Of a DNA stretch of 58,999 nt, positions 9,222 through 13,046 are shown in pieces. The position numbers and the translations under genes were made by a program. Numbering within the stretch: position 1 is the first letter of the stretch; each line of letters starts with the position of its first letter. This DNA comes from Paracoccaceae bacterium (GTDB lineage: Bacteria > Pseudomonadota > Alphaproteobacteria > Rhodobacterales > Rhodobacteraceae). The notes under the pieces are model-generated. The model did not search any database and had not been told where the DNA came from. It was given only the letters and a program-made list of their open reading frames with translations. The stretch spans positions 1 through 58,999 of the forward strand of contig JABSSA010000011.1 in the NCBI GenBank assembly GCA_013214665.1. The letters run 5' to 3'.

Positions 9222-9241
9222 GCGCGCCCGGATATGTGGTA

Positions 9242-9542
9242 GGGTCAGGACCCATTATTTGGCTGTGCTCAGCATGGAAAAATACGCGGTATCAGTGATT
9301 TGGGTTTCGCCGCGAAGGCTGGTTGCCTTTGCAAGAAAGCCGAAGCGCTGAGAACGTGTATTTCTCCATGCCCTTCGGGTTCGCCGGATTTTGCCTCAGC
9401 CTGCGTTATATGCTCTTGAAATAGAACCACCACTGACCGGCAACACATGCTTGCATGTGTGAGAGGGAATTCCTACGAGCATATGCCTAGCCTGATGCAA
9501 AATCTGGCGAACTGAGCATAGCAAATTAATGGATCCTGACCC
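9242..9542. mobile_element. Non-autonomous IS-derived element (MITE-like) with 31-bp inverted ends and TA target duplication
   Basis: Left end 9242-9272 and right end 9512-9542 are inverted repeats matching at 27 of 31 positions; both begin GGGTCAGGA. Each is flanked by TA (9240-9241 and 9543-9544), consistent with a 2-bp target duplication. Inside, 9381-9415 is an imperfect inverted copy of 9477-9510, and 9443-9460 is a perfect 8-bp palindrome (ACACATGC/GCATGTGT). No transposase frame is present at this size. TA duplication is known for IS630 and for the IS427 branch of IS5. The parent family cannot be fixed from the ends alone. Confidence 0.85.
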
Positions 9543-10234
9543 TAGGTCCGCGCGGCCTCAAAGGCGGCCCAGGCGGCTTCGAAATCTTCGAAGGTGATGC
9601 GCTTGCCTTTCACGGCGTCAAAGACGATGCCTTCGGCCCTTTGCATCGCGGAAATCGCTTCAGCGAGGCGCGGCACCACATCTTCGGGGATCACCACCGC
9701 GCCGTGGCGGTCTGCATGGATCAGATCACCAGGAGCAACGGTCAGGCCAAAGACTTGCACGGGCTGGTCAAAATCAACCACATGGACAAAGGCGTGGCTG
9801 GGGCCGATAGAGCCGGCGACCACAGGATACTCGGGCGCCAGATCGCCCAGATCACGCATGACCCCGTTGGTGAGCGTGCCCGACAGGCCAAAGGCCTTGT
9901 GGATGTTGGTGTTGACCTCCCCCCAATAGGCCCCCACGGCGGCCGCGCCGTCCACGTCTTCGACGACACACACACCGGGGCGCGGGCCTTCGGACATGTA
10001 GCGGTAATAGCCCATGCGCCGCGCTTTGATCTCATCTGCGGGCGCTGTGGGCGGGGCCACGGCGGAAATGCGGGCCGTGCGGACATAGCCCACCATCACG
10101 CCGGTTGGGTCCGAAATGAGCGGCGTGCCGCGGGTGAAGCCGTTAAAGCCACGCTGGCCTTGCGCCACTTCGATGGCATTGCAGACCGACGGCGTGTCGA
10201 CCGATTTCAAAAGGGAAAACAGCGCATTATCCAT
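9542..10234 (-). CDS. RraA-like protein (aldolase/decarboxylase family)
   Basis: A 230-residue protein of the RraA/HMG aldolase fold. Relatives act as 4-hydroxy-4-methyl-2-oxoglutarate aldolases or oxaloacetate decarboxylases; RraA itself binds RNase E. Characteristic segments are GTLTNGVMRDL (with the substrate-binding Arg-Asp) and LIHADRHGAVVIP. Length is normal for the metabolic branch. Its start shares one base with the upstream MetE-like stop. The TAG stop is formed by the TA target duplication plus the first base of the adjacent mobile element, so the original C-terminus may have been a little longer. Metabolic role is preferred over RNase control because of its neighbours. Confidence 0.8.
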   Translation of the reverse strand: MDNALFSLLKSVDTPSVCNAIEVAQGQRGFNGFTRGTPLISDPTGVMVGYVRTARISAVAPPTAPADEIKARRMGYYRYMSEGPRPGVCVVEDVDGAAAVGAYWGEVNTNIHKAFGLSGTLTNGVMRDLGDLAPEYPVVAGSIGPSHAFVHVVDFDQPVQVFGLTVAPGDLIHADRHGAVVIPEDVVPRLAEAISAMQRAEGIVFDAVKGKRITFEDFEAAWAAFEAART

Positions 10235-12407: not shown

Positions 12408-13046
12408 TCATCCTTTCGCATTTCGCAGCGCTGCGTTTTCCGCCTCCAACGCGCGGATGCGCGCCTCCAACGCGCGGATGCGCGCCTCCAGTCGGTCAAA
12501 CTCGGGGCCAACCACGGCGGCAAGCTCGGCCTGATCCATGCGCAATGTGATGAATTGCGGGCAGTTCCAGTCAAACGCCTCAACATCCACAAGGACCAGC
12601 CGTTCTACGCGCCCCTGCCCCTCTGTGTGGAGTTTTTCAGCCAATTCAGGATTGGAATCGGCTGGCATCATGCGCGCATGACCTTGCAGCTTTAGCCGCG
12701 CTTTTTGCGGATAATCCATTGCAAAGAATGACGTTTTCGCATTCCCAACCAGATGCCCTTGCGAGACAAGCTGCCGATTGCCGCGATAATCGGCAAAGCC
12801 GAATTGCGTAGGCGATACCACTTTAAGAAAGCCGCGCGGCCCGCCGCGGTGCTGAATATAAGGCCAGCCGGTTTCGCTAATGGTCGACATGTAAACCGAA
12901 GTGCGGCTTTGCAAAAAGGCAATCTCATCCGGCCCCAACCCATCAGGAGCTTTGGCGTAGCGGGTGCCAAAGGCCTCTGCGCTGCCTTCCGCTTCCTGAC
13001 CTGCACGCACATTGGGCGTGAACATGAGATCGCCATAGCTTTGCAT
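12408..13046 (-). CDS. Pyridoxamine 5'-phosphate oxidase-like flavoprotein with repeated coiled-coil tail
   Basis: A 212-residue protein with a split-barrel flavin-binding core at about residues 30-180, of the group that includes PNPOx-related reductases (YMSTISETGWPYIQHRGGP). After about residue 180 the tail is a short coiled coil with the heptad LEARIRA repeated. The tail is encoded by a 21-bp tandem repeat. Cofactor (FMN, F420 or haem) and substrate are unknown. It lies 4 bases upstream of the dipeptidase gene in the same operon. Confidence 0.75.
   Translation of the reverse strand: MQSYGDLMFTPNVRAGQEAEGSAEAFGTRYAKAPDGLGPDEIAFLQSRTSVYMSTISETGWPYIQHRGGPRGFLKVVSPTQFGFADYRGNRQLVSQGHLVGNAKTSFFAMDYPQKARLKLQGHARMMPADSNPELAEKLHTEGQGRVERLVLVDVEAFDWNCPQFITLRMDQAELAAVVGPEFDRLEARIRALEARIRALEAENAALRNAKG
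12441..12490. repeat. 21-bp tandem repeat inside the flavoprotein gene
   Basis: The unit beginning CGCCTCCAACGCGCGGATGC occurs twice in full (12441-12461, 12462-12482) and starts a third time for 8 bases. Being a multiple of 3, a change in copy number would add or remove one coiled-coil heptad without breaking the frame. Confidence 0.9.

Follow-up and report, generated by a model that had tools for sequence, protein, structure and literature searches.

The stretch of DNA considered here (the window, 58,999 nucleotides from a Paracoccaceae bacterium) carries a 301-bp element with inverted ends, the parts of which are listed in Table 1. The two ends match at 27 of 31 positions, or at 29 of 33 when the TA on each side is included. 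On its right, the element meets an RraA-like gene on the minus strand (open reading frame 9542..10234), whose TAG stop is made up of the last base of the element and the TA duplication. The 3' end of this gene seems to have been set by the insertion. A search for an empty orthologous locus found none, and RraA-like homologues showed no conserved pairing with the dehydratase gene. Further along the window, a minus-strand gene at 12408-13046 bears a repeated heptad-like tail (RLEARIRALEARIRALEAENAAL) at its end.

The first-pass annotation described the element as a set of nested palindromes lacking a transposase. Its 31-bp ends and TA flanks were re-found as given, no transposase lies inside the 301 bp, and both its second inverted repeat (9381-9415 with 9477-9510) and its perfect inner palindrome are real, the repeat being the stem of the right arm of a larger fold. 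The symmetry was therefore correctly seen, although a second, equally long arm on the left had been overlooked.

Table 1. Parts of the 301-bp element and its borders, in window positions.
Feature	Position	Strand	Remarks
Left TA target duplication	9240..9241		TA flanks are common to the seven listed MITE copies and the 832-bp IS
Left terminal inverted repeat, 31 bp (stem of the Y)	9242..9272	+	27/31 complementary to 9512-9542
Left arm, long imperfect hairpin	9273..9370	+	DNA folds; helices 2-5 of the covariation analysis
Small hairpin CCCTTCGGG at the arm junction	9371..9379	+	Helix 6 of the covariation analysis
Right arm, long imperfect hairpin, apical loop split by the 37-bp insert	9380..9511	+	Folds; helices 7-9
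Inserted 37-bp hairpin element CACTGACCGGCAACACATGCTTGCATGTGTGAGAGGG	9431..9467	+	Follows C9430; about one boundary base ambiguous on each side
Perfect palindrome ACACATGC-TT-GCATGTGT	9443..9460	+	Conserved covarying hairpin of the 37-bp family
Right terminal inverted repeat, 31 bp	9512..9542	+	Pairs with the left end
Right TA target duplication	9543..9544		With C9542, forms the TAG stop of the minus-strand RraA-like gene

Probable parentage and fold of the outer element

The window genome contains four full copies of the outer element, namely the window copy of 301 bp and three copies of 264 bp (on contigs C410, C9 and C312). The closest sister, on C410, is identical to the window copy at 257 of 264 positions outside the insert. 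Three copies of 263 bp with about 75% identity occur in one other genus of the same family (G053), and more distant copies in three further genomes (G082, G003 and G324). The flanks differ from one copy to the next, and TA stands on both sides of each of the seven listed copies. A search with the end sequence also retrieved a resident 832-bp element (C197) with MITE-like ends, TA flanks and a two-frame transposase. The two parts of this transposase match NF033580 of the IS5 family (E 3.6e-28 and 9.5e-46), with DUF4096 and DDE_Tnp_1 as Pfam matches. The right end of the MITE agrees with the left end of the IS at 18 of 20 positions, and the remaining end pairings agree at 15 of 20. The first-pass annotation had regarded the absence of both a second copy and an IS with these ends as grounds against its reading; further copies and such an IS both exist.

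These comparisons show that the outer element is a MITE of IS5 (IS427-like) type with a normal form of 264 bp. The 832-bp parent IS, with its two-frame transposase, may belong to the IS427 subgroup. In MITEs generally, the IS that shares their ends is the likely source of transposase. Movement in trans, which the first-pass annotation had assumed, is accordingly probable here, the enzyme presumably being that of the 832-bp IS5-family element or of a relative with the same ends and TA flanks. Since the IS with matching ends belongs to the IS5 family, this family is favoured over IS630, and an IS630 origin is unnecessary. Like other bacterial MITEs with IS5-family (IS427-like) ends, the element lacks a transposase, shares the ends of a resident IS5-family element, is bordered by TA duplications and is present in several copies per genome.

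Unlike IS5-family MITEs in which merely the ends are paired, all 264 bp of this one take part in a fold that is kept by compensatory changes across genera. The whole MITE forms a Y, composed of a terminal stem and two long arms. Single-strand folding, proposed as a check in the first-pass annotation, lies far beyond chance as DNA when compared with dinucleotide shuffles (z = -14.0 for a 264-bp sister and -10.5 for the window copy). Covariation was analysed in seven copies from five genera over 101 predicted base pairs, 45 of which showed changes on both sides that keep the pair. The terminal stem and both arms contribute to this signal, the terminal stem with compensatory change in 16 of its 31 pairs. 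Paired cells reach 94.7%; shuffles give 82.1%, with none of 500 attaining the real value, and sliding the partners gives 31-41%. Because compensatory changes are found across genera, what has been kept during sequence change is the folded form, be it of DNA or of RNA; the Y-fold itself is conserved. In effect, the outer MITE is a known kind of element that is unusual for its conserved fold.

Such covariation along the whole element would also suit a structured non-coding RNA gene or regulatory element with inverted ends arisen by chance, yet this is most improbable, given that each listed copy is flanked by TA and has ends common to an IS of the same genome, that the copies occupy unrelated positions with their own flanks, and that an Rfam search gave no relevant match to the MITE or hairpin sequences.

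The 37-bp insert and its hairpin family

Alignment of the window copy with its sisters reveals a single extra block, which occupies the apical loop of the right arm and measures 37 bp; it is this element that makes the window copy 301 bp long and not 264 bp. The first-pass annotation had weighed a structured MITE against an insertion combined with rearrangement of an IS end. The MITE and the insertion both hold, whereas the rearrangement falls away, since the outer two levels of symmetry belong to the conserved Y-fold and the innermost one is a foreign 37-bp hairpin element. The insert is missing from all three 264-bp copies of the window genome and from the copies of G053 and G003. It is either a recent arrival in the window copy or has been lost precisely from the others, and it is the only member of its family in the window genome. 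In a distant MITE copy of G324 (L032), the corresponding loop position is likewise filled by a member of this hairpin family. Taken with the empty, near-identical sister of the window copy, L032 points to two independent insertions in the same MITE loop.

Another MITE-like repeat, in G489 (L030, L051, L122 and L123), shares the CTTGAAATAGATCACTATTCC loop with the window MITE. Each of its copies holds one hairpin element, located elsewhere than in this loop.

Members of the hairpin family follow the plan CRYTGCCCGGCAR-variable covarying hairpin-GAGAGGG and measure about 34-45 bp, mostly 37 or 41 bp. Among 52 distinct 37-mers, which share the end sequences CNYTG and GAGAGG, the hairpin is 97% paired, against 85% in shuffled sequences (maximum 88%), and different pair types replace one another at the same positions. 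A search with the 37-bp sequence alone found it in 23 genomes out of 390 sampled from the order. A strict 31-base pattern matched 35 stretches in 84,980 species genomes, with titles nearly all from Rhodobacterales, and 19 plasmid records from the same group. The same pattern had zero matches in phage records and viral contigs, and a phage or viral source was rejected for this reason. Strict family counts range from 1 to 96 per genome in 12 genomes, with 0-1 for a reversed-pattern control; the copy-rich genomes are G260 (96), G338 (89), G452 (60) and G355 (45). In a class-wide sample of 240 genomes, several hairpin-bearing matches outside the bacterial family were seen only in G666 and G588, the remaining matches being isolated, devoid of a hairpin and about as frequent as in the control. 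No published description of the hairpin family was found among open-licence papers; an earlier description elsewhere is possible, and the family is seemingly undescribed.

The two outlying genomes, G666 (L231-L233) and G588 (L235 and L236), belong to other alphaproteobacterial families and contain small numbers of hairpin elements whose ends are those of the hairpin family. By reading, those of G666 lie in transposase genes.

Host genes and insertion sites

The flanks of 82 distinct contexts fall into 32 unrelated groups. Pfam matches in the flanking frames include rve and HTH_21 (IS3 type), DDE_Tnp_1_5, DUF4096 and DDE_Tnp_1_2 (IS5 type), TnpB_IS66 and DDE_Tnp_IS66 (IS66 type), IstB_IS21 (IS21), Zn_Tnp_IS91 (IS91), Transposase_20 (IS110), Transposase_mut (IS256), and Phage_integrase for tyrosine integrases. 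The hosts of nearly every examined copy are transposase or recombinase genes or MITEs, in both orientations, many of the IS assignments being made by homology or motif reading and not by a separate Pfam match for each copy. Transposase genes also predominated among the 45 distinct contexts examined in two copy-rich genomes. MITE-like hosts are represented by the window copy and the G489 copies. Outside ISs, a 34-bp GC-rich type (for instance TGCCCGGCAGGCGGCTTTGCCGCCGAGAGGG) is found between genes in G355 (L167, L173 and L174) and could be an extragenic form or source of the family; one further exception (L010) lies, by reading, in an RHS-type gene. The concentration in transposase genes, expressed in raw counts that are not scaled to the share of ISs, is hard to obtain from random insertion.

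Comparison of empty and filled alleles shows a net gain equal to the length of the element. For instance, L087 differs from a 95% identical Phaeobacter plasmid (CP104102) in that CACTCC/AGCGC (the slash marking the insertion point) has become CACTCC-element-GGCGC. At most one base of target duplication is visible. The base to the right of the insert often differs from that of the empty site (A to G, T to A), and the true inserted unit may be 38-39 bp long, replacing 1-2 bp. Among 78 distinct sites, 85% have C immediately to the left of the element, and none has A there. By eye, not as a statistic, junctions often abut conserved catalytic motifs, such as I/DATYLKAH, LLI/DSTGIK, NR/IEIMFGRLK, LLII/DELGY and TN/IEALNSKFR. 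The two orientations relative to the host gene are represented by 45 and 48 copies. The frame is shifted at 51 of the 64 scored 37-bp sites, with host frames estimated from codon-position GC content.

The elements also recur at the same sites. At one IS5-family site, parsimony requires six changes for the filled state, at least three of them forced by well-supported branches, and the filled copies formed a single clade in 0 of 200 bootstraps. Part of this recurrence could stem from the element being lost more than once, or from exchange among related ISs. Gene conversion as the sole route fails to explain the unrelated IS families and the non-homologous places.

In G355, an IS3 element of about 1.3 kb has eight dispersed copies, 99-100% identical, with the hairpin element at the same place in all of them. 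These eight near-identical filled copies indicate that ISs broken by the element can still spread, presumably in trans. Two other arrangements were observed. An IS5-like remnant in G452 (L192, L194 and L195) contains three hairpin elements at fixed spacing and has about eight copies in that genome. In an IS3 copy of G338 (L056 and L103-L106), 'CADITYLP' is followed at once by 'MDGKGRF', a hairpin element lying where they meet. It looks as though recombination between two such elements of a single IS has deleted the stretch that separated them.

What may move the hairpin elements

The whole is probably best explained as a Y-folded IS5-type MITE carrying an inserted 37-bp element, which would itself be a non-autonomous hyper-parasite of ISs. 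The alleles and copies compared above show insertion into pre-existing sequence, recurrence at the same sites, and conserved ends around a base-paired middle. To judge from its distribution and from the empty sites, the 37-bp element is likely to be mobile. An enzyme responsible for its movement was not found; a putative one acting in trans would recognise the hairpin, possibly in single-stranded form, and would prefer short targets that have C to the left. Once inserted, the element would ride on its host ISs, gaining in copy number and passing between species with them. The restriction to ISs may reflect active targeting, survival bias or passenger spread.

A bolder proposal, which we put forward tentatively and with less than even confidence, is that the 34-45-bp hairpins are devoted to insertion into the transposase genes of ISs, either as a site-selective mobile element of a new class or as a device actively used by the host. 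Here a non-Y1 enzyme would read the folded strand and select conserved transposase motifs.

That the host itself inserts the hairpins to break transposase genes, as an IS-silencing device, would fit their near-exclusive and mostly frame-shifting placement in unrelated transposase families, often with junctions beside catalytic motifs. The broken ISs nevertheless go on multiplying, a candidate system or gene was not found, and selective loss elsewhere together with passenger spread could yield much of the pattern, which makes such a device unlikely. We consider it similarly improbable that the 37 bp were left behind by a larger mobile element with the same ends, as an excision scar or in the form of a minimal remnant. 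Two conserved ends around a variable middle and slightly altered junction bases would agree with such an origin, but the middles are covarying hairpins of many types and lengths, unlike random scars, and a larger element with these ends was not seen in the loci examined.

The family also resembles ordinary REP/REPIN sequences moved by a RAYT (Y1, IS200/IS605-like) transposase. These are also short hairpin repeats of comparable size (34-45 bp in the hairpin family) with one conserved, tag-like end, reach up to about 100 copies without clear target duplication, and are probably non-autonomous (PMC3733652, PMC3116915). REPs are furthermore known to recur at the same site of recB (PMC3733652). However, Y1_Tnp (PF01797) is absent from G338, from G452 and from the window genome (G000). 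Since genomes with 89 and 60 copies lack it, a Y1 transposase is not required, and a REP/RAYT origin was rejected on the evidence of these two copy-rich genomes. In addition, neither the GTAG nor the CGTC end tag occurs in the 52 distinct 37-mers, and the hairpin copies lie within transposase genes, whereas REPs are mostly extragenic (PMC3116915). An ordinary REP/REPIN family is thus quite unlikely.

Rickettsia palindromic elements and CGTC repeats are likewise small palindromes in protein-coding genes, for which a dedicated transposase is not known; the reported hosts are genes of ordinary cellular function, to whose products the inserts add amino acids (PMC3733652). The hairpin family resembles the Rickettsia elements in being small palindromes inside genes and differs from them in that its hosts are transposases and the reading frame is usually shifted. 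The inner family behaves as REPs and Rickettsia palindromic elements do, but lacks those of their defining features that were tested. PMC3116915 also cites work by Elhai and colleagues (2008) on small dispersed repeats of cyanobacteria. Such repeats are reportedly very small, apparently mobile and sometimes nested in other repeats, and the hairpin family is like them in these respects.

Tolerance of the inserts at the RNA or protein level, by intron-like removal, translational bypass or an added peptide of the kind seen with Rickettsia palindromic elements, might be read from the ISs that are filled at a fixed place and still multi-copy, and from the several frames that are open through the element. 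This is very unlikely, as a strand-specific RNA mechanism would not give the observed balance of orientations, neither 37 nor 41 is divisible by three, and frame-shifting copies are in the majority; bypass or an intron was rejected for lack of orientation bias.

The Y-shaped MITE, whose compensatory changes are genus-wide, clearly exemplifies selection on the folded form of a bacterial miniature transposon. If the location bias of the hairpin family holds, some Rhodobacterales carry tens of tiny elements living inside other jumping genes, a parasitism one level below the MITE. Such elements would then offer a test case for the movement of very short sequences without a Y1 transposase, as well as an easy way to recognise insertion sequences that are dead or tamed. 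Should the more tentative proposal of a site-selective element or device prove true, the hairpins would constitute a natural brake on, or a parasite of, insertion sequences in Rhodobacterales.
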